Shown here one piece after another: positions 45,212 through 64,000 of a DNA stretch of 64,000 bases. Origin of the DNA: Candidatus Magnetocorallium paracelense. GTDB taxonomy: Bacteria > Nitrospirota > Thermodesulfovibrionia > Thermodesulfovibrionales > Magnetobacteriaceae. The stretch lies in assembly GCA_029001845.1 (NCBI GenBank), contig JAREWP010000010.1:1-64000 (forward strand). Direction: 5' to 3'. A program made the translations under genes and the position numbers. Under the pieces are notes generated by a model. It did no database searches, had not been told where the DNA came from, and saw only the letters and a program-made list of their open reading frames with translations. Each line of letters opens with the position of its first letter. Within the stretch, counting starts at the first letter, position 1.

Positions 45212-45619
45212 CTATTGTTTGAAATACTGGATAAAATCAACTGGAGTTAATACTTCAAACGCCGCATCATGTAAATCAGAAAGAAAATGTCGATTGTCAG
45301 AGATAAGATATTGTGCATTTTGCCACTCTACAAAAGCTCCAATTAAAGCATCTGCTTTCTCGGGTAACCCAAGCCCGGTGTATTTTATGATCAAGTCAAT
45401 TGGGATAGCTTCGTCAATAATAGTAAAATGCGGTAATTTGTTTAGCAATGCATAGAGAACTTTTGATTGTTCATAGTCTATATTTCTTGTTACTTCTTTT
45501 ATAATCAAACGTGGTAGAACAAGATCCACTTGAGGTAAGAGTAGCATCAACTTTTCTGAAGCTGAATCCGTACCGGAAATACCGAAAATAAATTGATTGC
45601 TATCGATACAGATGCGCAT
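45212..45619 (-). CDS. PIN-domain toxin
   Basis: 135 residues from ATG 45619 (MRICIDSNQFIFGISG); the frame extends 15 codons upstream inside the antitoxin gene. PIN ligands: Asp5, a conserved Glu in IIKEVTRN, EKADALIGAF and LISDNRHF. A VapC-like ribonuclease. It overlaps the antitoxin gene by 20 bases, typical of TA operons. Confidence 0.8.
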   Translation of the reverse strand: MRICIDSNQFIFGISGTDSASEKLMLLLPQVDLVLPRLIIKEVTRNIDYEQSKVLYALLNKLPHFTIIDEAIPIDLIIKYTGLGLPEKADALIGAFVEWQNAQYLISDNRHFLSDLHDAAFEVLTPVDFIQYFKQ

Positions 45620-45893
45620 ATTCTGTCTCGTAAATCTCACGGCGTTGTTTTCGTAGGTTGGCAATTACTTCTTCTTTAGTATGTCCTAAACCAAATCCAC
45701 CCGTAGAGCGTATTTGTTTCTGTAGTTGTCGAAATTCACGCTGCCAATTTTCGTGATGTATGTCAGCCAAATAACGTTGTACAGCCTGGGAGACAAAATC
45801 AGTGAGAGTAGAATATGCAAGTTCTTGCTGTGCACATTCAAGCTCACGATATAGACTTTCTGGGACTTTCCATACAATCTCTTTAGATACCAT
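45600..45893 (-). CDS. Antitoxin of the PIN toxin
   Basis: 97 residues from ATG 45893, preceded by AGGAGG at five bases; the longer frame to 45947 lacks this. VSKEIVWKVPESLYREL and YSTLTDFVSQAVQRYLAD suggest a ribbon-helix-helix N-terminus; the tail (KEEVIANLRKQRREIYETEY) would wrap the toxin. First gene of the pair. Confidence 0.72.
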   Translation of the reverse strand: MVSKEIVWKVPESLYRELECAQQELAYSTLTDFVSQAVQRYLADIHHENWQREFRQLQKQIRSTGGFGLGHTKEEVIANLRKQRREIYETEYAHLYR

Positions 45894-46007
45894 TTTCCCT
45901 CCTAATGATAGGACTTGACTCTTTGTTGTATTATACATATCTGCCAAAACATGGAACCTTGTGTTATACGATTATTTCTTCAACCGACATTTTGGGATTA
46001 ATTTTCC

Positions 46008-46448
46008 TTAGTGTTTTTGTAACATATCCTTGCTCTTGCAGATATTCCTCATATTTTGTCGAGGTTCAATGTCTCGACCTCCAATAATAACAGGTAAATC
46101 ATTTGTTCCAATGTTAGAAATTAATGTTTCTTCAGATTCTCCAATGAATGCCCCATCAATATATAATCTTGCTTTTCCATTGTTATCGATGTCACATATA
46201 CCAACAACATTGTGCCATGCTCTATCATTATAATTAGACATATCTCCAAAAACTAGACTATTGACATTTATGCGATTACCAGAGGAATCAAAACAATTTA
46301 TTCCGACGCTATTTGCCCACTTTATTGGCGTACTTGGATTTATGTGAATTACATAACCAGTACGTGTGGTTACTGTAGGATCTTCCTTCCTACAATTATT
46401 CCTCCGTTTACACTGTCTGAAGGAAAACTTCCTACCTTTGCATACCAC
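46008..46448 (-). pseudogene. LamG-domain protein fragment
   Basis: The frame contains the core of a LamG/concanavalin-like domain (AWHNVVGICDIDNNGKARLY, IDGAFIGESEE, IIGGRD). Upstream, the neighbouring frame reads VGSFPSDSVNGGIIVGRK and joins near 46385, so one frameshift splits the domain. Neither the preceding part of a secreted protein nor a normal end is present. A remnant within the cassette-like patch. Confidence 0.6.
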
Positions 46449-46556
46449 TACATGGTCATTATTCTCCTGTTTCAGATATGAATTTATTACTATAACATCA
46501 TCTTACTGAAATTCAAGTCCCTCCCCTTTCTTGAAGTAAATTCCTATTGTTTTTTA

Positions 46557-46787
46557 CTATGCATATGCAAACACATCCATGGAAACCGACCTTATTGGTT
46601 TAACTTTACTATGCACAATGAGTCTGATCCGTTCAGTTGTCTCTCTACTAAAAATTTCCTCTCCACAACGCACACATACGATCGCCGGTATGTGCTCAAC
46701 TAAAATCGGTTTATTATCAATCTGAAACATCTCATTAATATACTCTTTTTTTGCCTCCTTTGAACCACATACATGACAATAAAACAT
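46557..46787 (-). CDS. YgiT/MqsA-type zinc-finger antitoxin
   Basis: 76 residues. Two CxxC pairs (CHVC at 4-7, CVRC at 38-41) form the zinc finger of the YgiT group; the rest is a short helical tail, without the helix-turn-helix of full MqsA. It lies two bases after the DUF4258 gene on the same strand and should be its antitoxin. Confidence 0.78.
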   Translation of the reverse strand: MFYCHVCGSKEAKKEYINEMFQIDNKPILVEHIPAIVCVRCGEEIFSRETTERIRLIVHSKVKPIRSVSMDVFAYA

Positions 46788-46789
46788 AT

Positions 46790-47098
46790 TTACCTCCGTT
46801 TACGATAATCAATCCACTTTTGTTTATCAGGCTCATGTAGTGTAATAATCCTTATTAAATCTGTATCAGCCCGAGATACTTGCATGTGTAATGGTCGTCC
46901 AAGTTCCGTAAAACCAAGGAGCAGGCAACTTGGAGAATATTTATCGTCAGGATACTCTTCAATAATCTCTGAAAATTTCCCTGCTTCTTTTATCTCCTGT
47001 TCGCTGATATCACGCTTAACAGCACGCTTGAAAGCATGTCTGGTATAATCAAAACGACCGAAAGATAATTGTTTAGTAATAACTTCAATCGTTTTCAA
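46790..47098 (-). CDS. DUF4258 toxin-like protein
   Basis: 102 residues: YTRHAFKRAVKRDISEQEIK, EIIEEYPDDKYSPSCLLLGF, GRPLHMQVSR and IRIITLHEPD match DUF4258, a RelE/MqsR-like fold. Paired with the YgiT-type protein it forms a toxin-antitoxin module in toxin-first order, as in mqsRA. Confidence 0.78.
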   Translation of the reverse strand: MKTIEVITKQLSFGRFDYTRHAFKRAVKRDISEQEIKEAGKFSEIIEEYPDDKYSPSCLLLGFTELGRPLHMQVSRADTDLIRIITLHEPDKQKWIDYRKRR

Positions 47099-52548: not shown

Positions 52549-52942
52549 ATTTTTTGTTTTACCTGACCCTGCAAGACGGAAGTGAGAGAGGCATAAGGCA
52601 TAAGTTTTAAAATTCGGTTCACCGCCTTATATTAGTGTTTGTCTTTATAACCACTGCCGTCGAACTATTTGTTAATTCAGGTGTAACTGTTCAGTGTGAT
52701 CTGAGATCAGTTGAAAGTAAAAAGTACCTTTTTTATTGAATTTCACGAGCATAATTGGCATTTCCACCCTTTTTAGGAGTTCGTAGCATGAAAAATCAGA
52801 CAAATTTCTTTAAACAGATCACCAATCTCTGAACTCTGTGAACAGTTACATTCTGGTATTTGGTTGTCCTTTCAAAAAAGCCTTGAAGCTTAGGATAAAA
52901 AAGTGTTACATTTTAATGTCCCTATATTTTATGGAAGTGACT
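52549..52942. other. Divergent kinase/cyclase intergenic region
   Basis: Roughly 390 bases holding the promoters of both genes, not recognisable. It includes TGTTTTACCTGAC (52556-52568) and GGCATAAGGCATAAG (52592-52606), phrases that also occur near 6556 and 1373. Confidence 0.4.
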
Positions 52943-53863
52943 ATGGAAAATCAACATTCAAGGTTAGTTATTTGTTTTATTGATATCTGCGGAAGTACAA
53001 AACTCTATGAAAGGTATGGAGACGCCGAGGCGTTAAAGGCAGTGACGACTTGGATGACGCTGATTTCGGAGACAATTCAGGATTACAGCGGCACAGTGCT
53101 GAGGACGATAGGAGATGAAGTGTTCTGTACCTTTCCAACCCCAAAAGACGCCATCGAAGCTACCGCCTTTATGCAAAGGTCCGTTCCCGGTCATAACTCT
53201 CTGAAGAATTTCAAAATAGAAATGAGGATTGGTCTTCATTTCGGAGATGTTTTGAAAGAAAAGGGAGAGATTTACGGAGACGCCGTTAATCTGGCCGCCA
53301 GGCTTACTTCCGTGGCAAAGGCGAATCAGATCATCACCTCCTCCGATACGGTTCAGGCATTTCCGGAAGTGTTGTTAACAAAGTCACGCAAATTGGGTCG
53401 CGTCAGCGTAAAAGGTAAAATAGAAGAAGTGGTGGTTTACGAACTACTTTGGCAGGAAGACGAAGCTGATCTGACGACAGTACAGGAGAGTTCGGCAGAT
53501 ACGGCAACCAGGACTTCGAGCGCCCTGACTTTACGCTATGGAGACACCGAGGTCAGGTTAAACGACCAAAAGACATCGGTTACATTGGGCAGAGGGGATA
53601 AAAACGCATTCGTTATAAATGAAAAGATGGCATCCAGAAATCATGCTACTGTAGAATATAAACAGGGTACATATATACTAACCGATTTCAGCACCAATGG
53701 CACTCATGTTAAAATGTATGACGGGCAGAAATTTTTTGTACACAGGCAGGAATTTCAGCTTTACAAAAAAGGAATCATAAGCCTTGGCCGCGAGATCTCG
53801 GGAGATACCTCGAACTGTATTTTTTTCACTCAGATCGTCGGATTCAGCAGACCGGACCAATAG
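52943..53863 (+). CDS. Adenylate cyclase with C-terminal FHA domain
   Basis: 306 residues from ATG 52943 (MENQHSRLVICFIDICGSTK), preceded by GGAAG six bases away; the frame is open to 52838. Class III cyclase domain with metal Asp in CFIDICGSTKL and in RTIGDEVFCTF, then GEIYGDAVNLAARL. A linker leads to an FHA domain (about 205-290: VTLGRGDKNAFVI, SRNHATVEY, DFSTNGTHV). FHA binds phosphothreonine, so the adjacent kinase is a plausible input. Soluble. Confidence 0.88.
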   Translation: MENQHSRLVICFIDICGSTKLYERYGDAEALKAVTTWMTLISETIQDYSGTVLRTIGDEVFCTFPTPKDAIEATAFMQRSVPGHNSLKNFKIEMRIGLHFGDVLKEKGEIYGDAVNLAARLTSVAKANQIITSSDTVQAFPEVLLTKSRKLGRVSVKGKIEEVVVYELLWQEDEADLTTVQESSADTATRTSSALTLRYGDTEVRLNDQKTSVTLGRGDKNAFVINEKMASRNHATVEYKQGTYILTDFSTNGTHVKMYDGQKFFVHRQEFQLYKKGIISLGREISGDTSNCIFFTQIVGFSRPDQ

Positions 53864-53871
53864 AGGGCAGG

Positions 53872-54294
53872 TCAGAACGAATCCGTTTCATTGCTTATTT
53901 TATCAAGTTTGTTTTTTAACTGATGATACTTCATGGTCATATTGATCAATTGCCCTGTTGTCTCTCTCAACCTGTCTGACAAACCATTCAGTATCATTCG
54001 AAAGTCTTTTGAAGTTTTATTTATCTCGTTTTCCAGAAAATCCTTGTCTATGATCCCAAGTTCCACTTCTCCTATCGCCACTGCCGTAGCTGACCTGGCT
54101 TGCTTGTCGATCAGGCTTATCTGTCCGAGTATATCTCCTCTTTTTAGATGGGCGATCGTAATTTTGGCGCCGCCGATCATAACGGAAATAGCCACCTTAC
54201 CGGTGAGTATCAGATAAGTCGCCTCTCCAAAGGTTCCTTCCTTAAAAATGATCTGGCCGTCACTATAGGTTTCTTTTGTTGTAACACTTCTCAT
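53872..54294 (-). CDS. Cyclic nucleotide-binding domain protein
   Basis: 140 residues: GQIIFKEGTFGEATYLILTG, HLKRGDILGQISLIDKQARSATAVA, then a helical tail. The phosphate-binding cassette keeps Arg (ARSATA), but the usual Glu (GELALL) is Gln (GQISLI), which may weaken cAMP binding. No DNA-binding domain. It converges on the cyclase-FHA gene with an 8-base gap, a likely synthesis-sensing pair. Confidence 0.82.
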   Translation of the reverse strand: MRSVTTKETYSDGQIIFKEGTFGEATYLILTGKVAISVMIGGAKITIAHLKRGDILGQISLIDKQARSATAVAIGEVELGIIDKDFLENEINKTSKDFRMILNGLSDRLRETTGQLINMTMKYHQLKNKLDKISNETDSF

Positions 54295-54515
54295 AAAAAA
54301 TATTATACCAAAATTTAATCATAAAAAAGCATCCCCCAATCGGTAGCCGACAGGAAAATTGGTCACTCCAAATCCATGAGGTTTAGCAATTGAAGTACAA
54401 TTCCTTGACTACATGAATTATCATATAGTAGAGTAATTCGGTCAGAGGAATAGTGGGTTATATCTGTTTTTATTATTAATCTTATTGAGATAGTACGAAG
54501 AGGGAGGATAAATCT

Positions 54516-55541
54516 TTGATAAAAAATTTGTCCATCAATAATTTCAAGTCAATCGGGCATTTGGATTTGGAATTAAGAAAAACCAATATCTTCATAGGCC
54601 ATCCTAATACAGGAAAATCGAACATCCTCGAAAGCCTTGGTATTTTCTCTTCCTTCTATAATGAAAACATGGGCATCGGTAATCTGGTCAGATTCGATAA
54701 TGCTATTAATCTCTTTCATGACCTGGATATTCAAAAGCAAATTGAAATTACTGCCGATCGTTTTCAATGCATAGCATGCTTTACAGGGGAATTTCTCACC
54801 CTCTCTTTTTTAAAAAACGGTGGTACTTATTACGAACAACACGACAACGGTGACGATCATAGTGAACACAAAAAGATAAAAGCGTCTGCCCTTGTCTCAG
54901 AAACTCATACATTTATTAACAAATCGGAGAATCCCCCTTTTAAGTTTTATAAATTTGAAGCTCTAAAATCTTTTTCTCTTGCCAAAGGTTCCGCAAAAGA
55001 TTTTCTCCACCCTCCTGATGGCCACAATCTGCTTTCTCTCCTTTTGACAGACAAATCTCTGAGGGAATCGGTATCCGGTATTTTTGAAAAGTTCGGATAC
55101 AAGGTCGTATTAAGACCCCAGGATAAACGAATCGATGTGCAGAAGGAGGTTGATAGCATGATTGTTGCGATTCCTTACTCTCTTGTCGCAGATACGCTCC
55201 AGCGGCTGGTGTTTCACATCGCTGCGATTGATACCAATACTGATTCCGTACTCATCTTCGAGGAGCCGGAATCCTTTGCATTCCCCTATTATACAAAGTA
55301 TATTGCCGAGAGAATCGCTCTGGACGAAACCAACCAATATTTATTATCTACCCATAACCCCTACTTTCTACTCTCGGTCATTGAAAAAACCCCTATGAAA
55401 GACTTGGCAATTTTTATAACATACCTTTCCGGCTACCAGACAAAAGTCAAAAGTCTTAATGAGAGAGAGAAACAGGAAATACTGGATATGGATGCCGCTG
55501 TCTTTTTTAATCTTGAACAATTCATTGAAATCGAAAAATGA
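54516..55541 (+). CDS. ABC-type AAA ATPase (AAA_15/21, OLD-like)
   Basis: 341 residues from TTG, preceded by GGGAGG. SMC-like ATPase: LSINNFKSIGHLDLEL, Walker A GHPNTGKSN (28-36), a large insertion, Walker B SVLIFEEPES and the H-loop STHNPYF. It resembles the ATPase half of OLD-family nucleases and of AriA in PARIS defence. A small gene with TOPRIM-like acidic residues follows in the same frame after one TGA. A defence role is inference. Confidence 0.8.
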   Translation: MIKNLSINNFKSIGHLDLELRKTNIFIGHPNTGKSNILESLGIFSSFYNENMGIGNLVRFDNAINLFHDLDIQKQIEITADRFQCIACFTGEFLTLSFLKNGGTYYEQHDNGDDHSEHKKIKASALVSETHTFINKSENPPFKFYKFEALKSFSLAKGSAKDFLHPPDGHNLLSLLLTDKSLRESVSGIFEKFGYKVVLRPQDKRIDVQKEVDSMIVAIPYSLVADTLQRLVFHIAAIDTNTDSVLIFEEPESFAFPYYTKYIAERIALDETNQYLLSTHNPYFLLSVIEKTPMKDLAIFITYLSGYQTKVKSLNEREKQEILDMDAAVFFNLEQFIEIEK

Positions 55542-55547
55542 TCTTAT

Positions 55548-56024
55548 CTGGAATGTTATGCCGACAAAGCATTAGTCACTTCTTTGGGCGTTAAGAAGCA
55601 GATTGTCAGGCACGTATTCAGCAAAGGAAACGTATGCAATAAAGTCAGCAGGGGAAAGGGTGTTAGAGGCGTTGTTGATCAGGATCCTCTCAGCGTACAA
55701 CCATCATACATCGAGTCTATCGGCTCCTGTATCGAAAATAAAAGAGACATACTGCTCTTTAAAGATAAGATAAACGACAATTATATAATCATGCTCTGCC
55801 CTACCCTTGAAGGCTGGATATTAAAAGCTGCAAAAGCAGAGGGAATAAAACCGGCAAAATACGGCTTGCCTGACAAAGAAAAGGAACTGCATAAAATTGT
55901 CAATATAAATCTGCAAAAGCTCGAGCAATTGGTAAACGATCTTAAACAGCAAAGTCTCATGCTAAAAACATTAAAAAATTATCTTATACCCTCTTTCCGC
56001 GACAATATCCGATATGCAGACTAA
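55548..56024 (+). CDS. Small TOPRIM-like partner of the ATPase
   Basis: From CTG 55548: LECYADKALVTSLGVKKQIV, RGVVDQDPLS, YIIMLCPTLEGWILKAAKAE, then helices. The TTG at 55584 is the first usual start but cuts off the conserved ECYAD. A Glu after beta1 plus Asp-x-Asp in VVDQDP is the TOPRIM pattern of OLD-type nucleases. ATG 55538 (overlapping the ATPase stop) reads MIL and then needs a shift to join, so one indel near 55547 is likely. About 158 residues. The nuclease role is inferred from pattern and neighbour. Confidence 0.6.
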   Translation: MECYADKALVTSLGVKKQIVRHVFSKGNVCNKVSRGKGVRGVVDQDPLSVQPSYIESIGSCIENKRDILLFKDKINDNYIIMLCPTLEGWILKAAKAEGIKPAKYGLPDKEKELHKIVNINLQKLEQLVNDLKQQSLMLKTLKNYLIPSFRDNIRYAD

Positions 56025-62005: not shown

Positions 62006-64000
62006 TTAAAACCTTTCTATAGGTTTCTCTTCTATTCCCATAAAATTATAACCTATAAATATCGAATACTCCCTCAGAACATACTCTCTGTCATAAACGA
62101 TTAAGAGTCTCTTTTCAAATCTCTCAAAGGAGCCGACTGCTTCGTCAGGAAGTTTTTTGTCTCCCTTGCTTACATAAATGCCATTGATGACCGGCGGGGT
62201 TGTGTTCTCATTGCTCCTGATTTGGGCGGCAGCCTCGTTTAATCCGGGCCACAGGTCATATTGATTCATCCGTCTGCCTCTGCTAATACAGAATGTCACG
62301 GGATTGTCCTTTACATAAAAGGCCAACTCACCTGTTACCTGATACCTGTCGGAGAATATCAGTACATGCCCCTTTTCCTTAAGGGATTCGTTTATTTTAC
62401 TTACCTCCTCTCCCAGTTCTCGCCAGCCCCTTAATCTGGATGTCGAATCCATGTCAGGAGAGAGATTCAGAACAGAGGGGTAGTGAGATAAAACGGAAAA
62501 CAGGAGAACCACAGAAAGGGCAGACCATTTCAGGATCGTGATACTTCTTTTTTGATCGGTGCTGTTACAACCAAAAAAACAGAGGGAGAATGCCGCCATT
62601 CCCGTTATATATCCTGTAACCGCCCAATTGGCCTGAACCTTTCCCTGAATGCTTTTTAAAAGAAAAAAAGCCAGTACAGGGACCGAAAAGGAGAAGAGGA
62701 ATTTTCCGGTTTCAATCTTTTTGCAGCATGTGGCGTCCGGCTTAAAGAGAGCATAGAGCATCATGATAAATAAAAGGGGGCTTACAATACCTGCCTGTGA
62801 TCCCAAAAATTCGAAGTAATATGTAAAATGGATTTCAATGCCGTCGTATATGTGGGCCTGTCCGGCAGTATGCTTTAGAGTGAGCCAGTTATGGTTATGA
62901 TTCCAGATCATAACAGGTGAGAATACCAAGAGGCTTACGGCAATCGCCAAATAGGGGTGAACGGTTTTGAGAATGGTTCTGTTTTTTGAATAGAGCAGGA
63001 AAATCAGGGCACAAGGAAAAAACAGAGCCATTGTGTATTTTGCCAGAAGTCCCAGCCCTATAGAAACACCTGTAACTGCCCACCACCGGTGGTCTGACTT
63101 GAGAGCATGAAAAAACAGTAAAAGGGAGAGTAGCCAGAAAAATATGAAAGGCGAGTCAGTTGTAAAAATAATACCGTATGTAGCAAAGAGGGGTACTACT
63201 TGCAGCAACAGGGCTGAAATTAAAGCAGGCAGTTTTTCTTTGGTGAGATTAAGAACCAGGCTGTACATAACTATGCTGCTTAACAGACCAAATATAACTG
63301 CCGGCATTCTCACTCCCAGCTCGTTGTTTCCCAGGATGAATGTACTAAAGGAGATAATAAAGGCTACCAACGGGCCCTTTGAATAGTAACTCCAATCGGG
63401 ACGTCTGCTCCAGTCCCAGTAGTGGGCTTCATCGGGGCTCAGGTTGAGAGGTCCGTTCAGGATATAATAAACTCTGAAGAAACCGATTACAATTAAAAAG
63501 AGAAAAAGAAGAGATTCGTAGGGGGAGATTTTAAAATATTCTCTTGTCGTTTTATATAAGAGTATTGTAAATATCGATGAGAGAGTTCCCAATAACAGAC
63601 CGGCGACAATATCAGAGGGATAGTGTACACCCACATAGGCCCTTGAGTACGCTATAAAGAAAGCAGCGATGATGAGGTACCATCTCATAAAAGGGGATGC
63701 CGTTTTTCTGGTAAGCAAAAAAAGAGGTAATGCAACGGCAACTGCGTTGGAAGCATGGCTTGATGGCATGGAGAACGATTTTGAACAACCTACCAGCAAC
63801 CTGACGCCCTCGATCGTGTGACAGGGTCTCACGGTTTGTATAATATTTTTTAACTCATTGCTCAACCAGTCCGAGAGCAGGAACGATCCCAATGTAACCA
63901 GAAGAGTTAAACTCGGCAAGGCTTTGAACAGACTTCCCTCTCTTCTGTAAAGAATGATAAAAAGATAGATTATAAAGGGAAAGAGGAGATGAACGGAATG
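62006..64000 (-). CDS. PAP2 phosphatase fused to GT39 glycosyltransferase (partial)
   Basis: The frame is open from the stop at 62006 to the window edge at 64000, so the 5' end is missing; the TTG at 63919 is internal, since a hydrophobic helix precedes it. PAP2 part: KNIIQTVRP, SMPSSHAS and SRAYVGVHYPSDI contain all three lipid-phosphatase motifs. Then a GT39/ArnT-like part with the acidic loop LSPDEAHYWDWSRRPDWSYYSKGP and about ten helices, ending in a soluble periplasmic domain. It may dephosphorylate a polyprenyl or lipid A phosphate and transfer a sugar; the order of events is inference. Confidence 0.85.
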   Translation of the reverse strand, partial: HSVHLLFPFIIYLFIILYRREGSLFKALPSLTLLVTLGSFLLSDWLSNELKNIIQTVRPCHTIEGVRLLVGCSKSFSMPSSHASNAVAVALPLFLLTRKTASPFMRWYLIIAAFFIAYSRAYVGVHYPSDIVAGLLLGTLSSIFTILLYKTTREYFKISPYESLLFLFLIVIGFFRVYYILNGPLNLSPDEAHYWDWSRRPDWSYYSKGPLVAFIISFSTFILGNNELGVRMPAVIFGLLSSIVMYSLVLNLTKEKLPALISALLLQVVPLFATYGIIFTTDSPFIFFWLLSLLLFFHALKSDHRWWAVTGVSIGLGLLAKYTMALFFPCALIFLLYSKNRTILKTVHPYLAIAVSLLVFSPVMIWNHNHNWLTLKHTAGQAHIYDGIEIHFTYYFEFLGSQAGIVSPLLFIMMLYALFKPDATCCKKIETGKFLFSFSVPVLAFFLLKSIQGKVQANWAVTGYITGMAAFSLCFFGCNSTDQKRSITILKWSALSVVLLFSVLSHYPSVLNLSPDMDSTSRLRGWRELGEEVSKINESLKEKGHVLIFSDRYQVTGELAFYVKDNPVTFCISRGRRMNQYDLWPGLNEAAAQIRSNENTTPPVINGIYVSKGDKKLPDEAVGSFERFEKRLLIVYDREYVLREYSIFIGYNFMGIEEKPIERF

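Follow-up and report, generated by a model that had tools for sequence, protein, structure and literature searches.

A gene pair of an OLD-type ATPase and a small putative Toprim protein in Candidatus Magnetocorallium paracelense, an archaeal provirus and other phyla

Introduction

OLD-type ATPases that steer Toprim nucleases recur in microbial immunity, as in Gabija, PARIS, AbiL and retron Eco8. GajA holds its Toprim domain closed while ATP is bound (PMC12796447). AriA-AriB responds to a viral protein, which its ATPase recognises, with cleavage of tRNA by the Toprim subunit (PMC12839542, PMC12409363). The definition of PARIS requires a DUF4435 protein (PMC9122126). The metal ligands of the nuclease site have been assigned in Bp OLD, where E400, D455 and D457 coordinate metal A, and E404, T506 and E508 coordinate metal B (PMC6755086).

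Here we analyse two adjacent genes from Candidatus Magnetocorallium paracelense. They lie in the window, the 64,000-nucleotide stretch at the start of contig JAREWP010000010.1. An earlier note, made from the sequence alone, had described the pair as a split OLD- or PARIS-like ATPase with a mini Toprim partner, and had suggested that it could be an undescribed minimal defence module.

Results

The first gene (54516-55541, forward strand) was called as an open reading frame of 341 aa, running from TTG 54516 to TGA 55539-55541. It is preceded by a region read from the sequence as Shine-Dalgarno-like, AGGGAGGA (54498-54515, forward strand). The protein contains a Walker A motif (GHPNTGKS, residues 28-35), a Walker B motif (VLIFEEPE) and an H-loop (STHNPY), and all three motifs are kept in the ATPases of the family described below. 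Two Pfam profiles match above their cut-offs: AAA_15 (E=9e-12, 45.7 bits, cut-off 32.1) and AAA_21 (E=1.4e-7, 32.3 bits, cut-off 27). The PADLOC profiles for GajA, ATPase-Toprim, AriA and AbiLi match at similar moderate scores, with none clearly favoured. An AF2 model of the protein (pLDDT 75.5) retrieves a retron ATPase, GajA, TsOLD, PtuA and Rad50 from the PDB with Foldseek, at E values of 3e-11 to 1e-9. The protein is an OLD/Rad50-type ABC ATPase and belongs to the OLD superfamily of ABC ATPases; in this sense, its earlier description as SMC-like was right.

The second frame (55542-56024, forward strand) follows directly after the ATPase TGA and in phase with the ATPase. It comprises 160 codons counted from the ATPase stop (55542-56021) and ends with TAA 56022-56024. 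The chance probability of such an open frame at the local composition is about 1.5e-5. The frame opens with S-Y-L-E-C-Y-A-D and contains V-V-D46-Q-D48-P; its motifs are E-C-x-x-D, DxD and P-x-x-E-x-W, with E4, D8, G29, D46, D48, P87, E90 and W92 as key residues. The ECYAD and VVDQDP segments and the same-frame arrangement after a single TGA are thus present as first noticed. Since a 47%-identical relative occurs in an archaeal provirus (E=2e-34), the frame is coding or was so recently.

The beginning of the second gene is disturbed, as the note had also recognised. An ATG overlaps the ATPase stop (ATGA, 55538-55541, forward strand), at the place where the relatives start their second gene, and it is one frame off and reaches a stop after 18 codons. 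The first ATG, GTG or TTG in the homologous frame is TTG 55584, and its use would remove E4 and D8. CTG 55548 is the only candidate start that keeps both residues. The second gene of the window may have a genuine lesion here, may start at an unusual codon or may only look disturbed through an error of assembly, and it is perhaps inactive or not expressed. The in-frame position after the TGA is peculiar to the window and is explained by the one-base offset; in the relatives, the start codon overlaps the ATPase stop in a different frame. Readthrough of the TGA into a fused OLD-like chain was considered and is unlikely, since the relatives terminate and then restart in another frame.

We found 19 copies of the small gene: in the window, in an archaeal provirus, and in genomes of at least four other phyla. 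A tblastn search identified both genes as gp15 and gp16 of Geoglobus ahangari pleomorphic virus 1 (GahPV1, BK065157), a provirus of Geoglobus ahangari 234 (PMC10919331). The provirus is that of a pleolipovirus. Identity to the window is 48% for the ATPase (gp15) and 47% for the small protein (gp16), and the viral proteins carry no annotation beyond 'AAA family ATPase' and 'hypothetical protein'. Six further copies (Ignavibacteria, Limisphaera, Thermoguttaceae, Pedosphaera, Cytophagaceae and Chloroflexi) came from scanning GTDB contigs. Profile searches in samples of four phyla gave eleven more: the Chloroflexi genome proved to have two copies, and the other ten lie in other genomes. With the seed genome counted, the phylum samples give 3/289, 4/301, 4/248 and 3/246; the window copy was the only one found in its own phylum (1/396) and class (1/200). 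The family is rare and patchy, and spans five phyla. Pattern scans of IMG/VR found no copy. On a Parabacteroides distasonis plasmid (L092, 4046-4522), 158 aa are related to the C-terminal half of the ATPase; this is a fragment with no small gene beside it, and the match was rejected as a further pair. The family is under purifying selection: in four pairs, nonsynonymous change (pN 0.18-0.40) stays far below synonymous change, which is saturated.

The same ATPase lies directly upstream of the small gene in 18 of the 19 copies; among these, the ATPase is cut by the contig end in L005 and frameshifted in L020. The start codon of the small gene overlaps the ATPase stop in most copies (ATGA, GTGA, TGATG or TAGTG), usually by 1-4 nt. 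The junction is ATGA in L017, L018 and L019 and GTGA in L016 and L026. The overlap is 1 nt in L003, L005, L006 and L025, and 4 nt in L007, L008 and L009. A 6-nt gap is found in L004. The remaining copy, L021 (1456-1866; L033, 9846-10256), joins the first ~17 ATPase residues in frame to the second half of the small protein. It is a relic, as expected after a deletion of ~1 kb that joined both genes.

Distances among the ATPases are correlated with those among their small partners (Mantel r=0.72, p=0.0001, n=15 pairs, uncorrected for host relatedness). When RloB-linked, DUF4435-linked and fused OLD ATPases were placed in trees together with 15 ATPases of the family, the latter formed one clade (support 99/99 to 100/99), and the window ATPase joins the GahPV1 copy with moderate support (84/93 to 92/92). 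The outgroups in these trees come from relatives of the window's host and not from type systems; AriA of E. coli B185 is absent. The ATPase and the small gene are a conserved two-gene unit, and the proposal of a real pair of a split OLD-type ATPase and a small Toprim-like partner is borne out by their linkage and correlated divergence.

Lesions are present in four of the 19 copies: the window, L019, L020 and L021. In Chloroflexota, L019 (L031, 6389-7851, reverse strand) has an in-frame stop inside the small gene, and L020 combines its ATPase frameshift with an intact small protein. This frequency would fit a costly gene under changing selection, with errors in metagenome-assembled genomes as another possible source.

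Positions conserved in the small protein are E4, C5, D8 (once E), G43, D46 (once E), D48, P87, E90 (once D) and W92. At a mean identity of ~30%, E4 and D48 are present in 15/15 sequences and positions 8, 46 and 90 are acidic in all of them; a glycine (G29) follows predicted strand 2 in 12/15. The order of the acidic residues and the E-x3-(D/E) spacing agree with E400, E404, D455, D457 and E508 of Bp OLD, and E90 would take the role of E508. In an AF2 model based on seven sequences (mean pLDDT 86.5), DSSP assigns two successive strand-helix units, a third strand that ends at DxD, and then helix, hairpin, strand and helix. This is the order of a Toprim, in which strands 1, 2 and 3 are followed by E, G and DxD, respectively.

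Foldseek searches of the model against the PDB and BFVD returned no Toprim match, only noise at TM about 0.2. With hhalign, the small protein aligns weakly to RloB (P=0.03, with the DxD and P..E.W motifs aligned; 0.12 in a second setting), and the comparison with OLD-like_TOPRIM was null. The positive control, RloB against OLD-like_TOPRIM, failed too, so this silence means little. Judging from the motif order, the predicted topology and the conserved acidic residues, the small protein is likely to be a Toprim. The note's suggestion of a Toprim-like part is supported in part, by the motifs and by the structure prediction it had called for, which yields a Toprim-like order of elements; the fold and profile-profile searches did not confirm it. 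The part is indeed unusually small, at ~150-170 aa compared with 238 positions in the DUF4435/AriB profile and 195 in that of RloB. When the small proteins of 17 family members were searched against Pfam, NCBIfam, PADLOC and PHROGs, only chance-level matches were obtained (V-ATPase subunits, E1-E2).

Candidate defence genes occur within about 10 kb of three copies, one copy is viral, and most copies lie among housekeeping genes, as judged from translations by eye. Cas4-Cas1-Cas2 and a PDC-M55C protein lie no more than about 8 kb from L024's pair (L036), L026's pair (L038) has PDC-M02A and PDC-M02B 3-4 kb away, and L019's pair (L031) has a DNA methyltransferase about 3 kb away. The defence context of the homologues, for which the note had advised a survey, is partial, with most copies outside defence islands. 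Lone class 1 OLD cassettes are likewise not found beside other defence genes (PMC10568477). Two Verrucomicrobiota copies (L028 and L029) have two neighbours in common, a gene of ~933 aa that looks aconitase-like by eye and one of ~210 aa, which suggests stable vertical inheritance in that lineage.

In the window, a nucleotide cyclase with an FHA domain (52838-53863, forward strand; weak PADLOC match to the Pycsar cyclase) lies upstream of the pair. It converges with a stand-alone cNMP-binding protein (53872-54294, reverse strand), which weakly matches the PADLOC profile for the cNMP-binding part of Pycsar TIR effectors. A MatE transporter, read from the sequence, lies downstream. Two small toxin-antitoxin-like pairs were seen by eye at 45212-47098 (reverse strand), one of a PIN-like protein with an upstream partner and the other of a DUF4258-like protein with a YgiT-like zinc protein; neither has a PADLOC match. 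Past the window end at 64000, 11-18 kb downstream of the pair, the same contig contains, at 66,880-73,875 (L084, 3381-10376), a Dnd/Pbe-like cluster of DndC, a DndD/PbeC-like protein in two overlapping ORFs and an SspH-like FtsK protein, and after this cluster an AriA/AriB-like (DUF4435) pair. The host genome also has an RloA/RloB pair (C79) and a fused OLD protein (C13). It measures 6.0 Mb, compared with 1.9-4.2 Mb in the sampled family members.

The pair can be compared with each of the described systems. Like PARIS (AriA ATPase and AriB Toprim, 'class 4 OLD'), it consists of two adjacent genes with the ATPase first and has a corresponding set of acidic, putative active-site residues. Unlike in PARIS, the second protein is short and does not match the 238-position DUF4435/AriB profile; none of the 17 members examined has a PF14491 (DUF4435) match. 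Its ATPases also form a clade apart from the six DUF4435-linked, AriA-like ATPases sampled. AbiL (AbiLi and AbiLii) and RloA-RloB share with the pair the combination of an ATPase gene and a gene for a small Toprim-like protein. The AbiLi profile aligns along residues 1-285 of the window ATPase, and NPCFELW in RloB resembles the P-x-x-E-x-W motif. In contrast, the small protein does not match the RloB (PF13707) or AbiLii profile, and the RloA-type ATPases form a clade of their own (100/99), which the midpoint root separates from the ATPases of the pair.

Fused OLD proteins (class 1) and GajA (class 2) have the same type of ATPase and the same ligand order, E-x3-(D/E) ... DxD ... E. They differ in that the pair is made of two chains in 18/19 copies, the sole fusion being the deletion relic, and that the small protein lacks a match to OLD-like_TOPRIM. 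No UvrD-type GajB adjoins the pair, either in the window or in neighbourhoods L028-L038. A GajB-like helicase occurs 3.6 kb upstream of the pair in L038. The closest counterpart is GahPV1 gp15-gp16, with homologues of both genes in the same order and overlapping; unlike the copy in the window, it has an intact start (GTG overlapping TAG). We rejected assignment to PARIS, AbiL/RloAB, fused OLD or Gabija, as the pair does not show the DUF4435 protein, the RloB or AbiLii protein, the single chain or the GajB layout, respectively.

Discussion

The pair travels together across phyla yet matches no described family, and it is therefore probably an undescribed compact relative of PARIS and AbiL. It is best filed as a variant of the theme of OLD-type ATPase and Toprim that does not match the described families, and by analogy it may work as they do. 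Krishnan et al. 2020 is reportedly a classification of ABC ATPases. The ATPases of the family may already fall inside that scheme or among the unnamed OLD clades U1-U11 (PMC12796447).

We lean towards reading the locus as a copy of an undescribed compact 'split OLD' module. Its OLD-type ABC ATPase would be a sensor and scaffold controlling a putative Toprim-type, metal-dependent nuclease of ~150 aa, made from the next gene by translational coupling. The ATPase assembly would most likely hold the nuclease inactive or engaged. A trigger from a virus or foreign DNA would then shift the nucleotide state of the ATPase, and the nuclease would be released or positioned to cut. The target could be tRNA, as for AriB of PARIS, or DNA, as for GajA and OLD, and virus growth would be stopped or the cell killed. 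That the ATPase senses infection and licenses the small nuclease is proposed by analogy with GajA and AriA-AriB. The linkage, the correlated divergence, the ATPase clade, the acidic residues, the constraint and the patchy spread are the observations on which the 'split OLD' reading builds; its predicted parts would be the Toprim fold, a nuclease activity that the ATPase controls, and the role in defence.

A wider claim, which we place just short of an even chance, is that the family constitutes an undescribed split OLD class common to bacteria and archaeal viruses, with an anti-virus Toprim nuclease of ~150 aa (invariant Glu-Cys) and its own ATPase lineage. The earlier idea of an undescribed minimal defence module is upheld in part: the second protein belongs to none of the family libraries searched, and the indications of defence are the one viral copy and the three copies near defence candidates.

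Several other functions can be weighed against a defence module. The pair might be a toxin-antitoxin or abortive module like the AAA:TOPRIM_OLD pairs, with a small protein that is toxic alone and an ATPase that neutralises it. AAA-neutralised TOPRIM_OLD/RloB toxins have been reported (PMC10440598), and the upstream ATPase, the translational coupling and the lesions in 4/19 copies suit a toxic gene. In PARIS, however, deletion of either gene is non-toxic (PMC9122126), and in L020 the small protein is intact beside a frameshifted ATPase, which, short of a sequencing error, is hard to reconcile with an ATPase that acts strictly as antitoxin. We regard this alternative as unlikely. The pair might instead serve the cell itself, in maintaining the genome or in the cell cycle, on the precedent of the class 5 OLD protein Cran1, which illustrates that an OLD protein need not be a defence protein. 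Such a role would accord with the many copies among housekeeping genes and with the flanks shared by the two Verrucomicrobiota copies, as in vertical inheritance. It appears decidedly improbable, as presence in about 1% or fewer of the genomes per phylum, the scatter, the provirus copy and the decayed copies misfit an essential function. The pair could also be cargo that serves a virus or mobile element itself, in superinfection exclusion or genome processing, and in the ATPase tree it is the viral copy that stands nearest to the pair of the window. Against this, GahPV1 is the only viral copy and the others lie on cellular contigs with no obvious provirus, which makes cargo quite improbable.

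Two further alternatives concern the small gene itself. Its product might be a non-Toprim nuclease or an accessory subunit that resembles a Toprim by chance, which would agree with the lack of a fold or family match in Foldseek and the family libraries. Coincidence would have to account for five conserved acidic positions in OLD-type order, an OLD-type ATPase as partner, and a predicted b-a-b-a-b order in which E follows strand 1, G follows strand 2, DxD follows strand 3 and a further E follows the last strand; we consider it rather unlikely. That the window's own second gene is a decaying pseudogene with no present function is a serious possibility, though not the one we favour. The out-of-frame start and the lesions in L019, L020 and L021 speak for decay, while the rest of the frame stays open over 160 codons, an assembly error of one base could produce the same picture, and the family is constrained.

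Automatic annotation would miss the system, because its effector goes unrecognised in the defence-finding libraries now in use. If the 'split OLD' reading is true, a compact and independent lineage would add a simple two-gene system to those in which OLD-type ATPases steer Toprim nucleases, and its trigger, its target and the control exerted by the ATPase would become approachable with small proteins.
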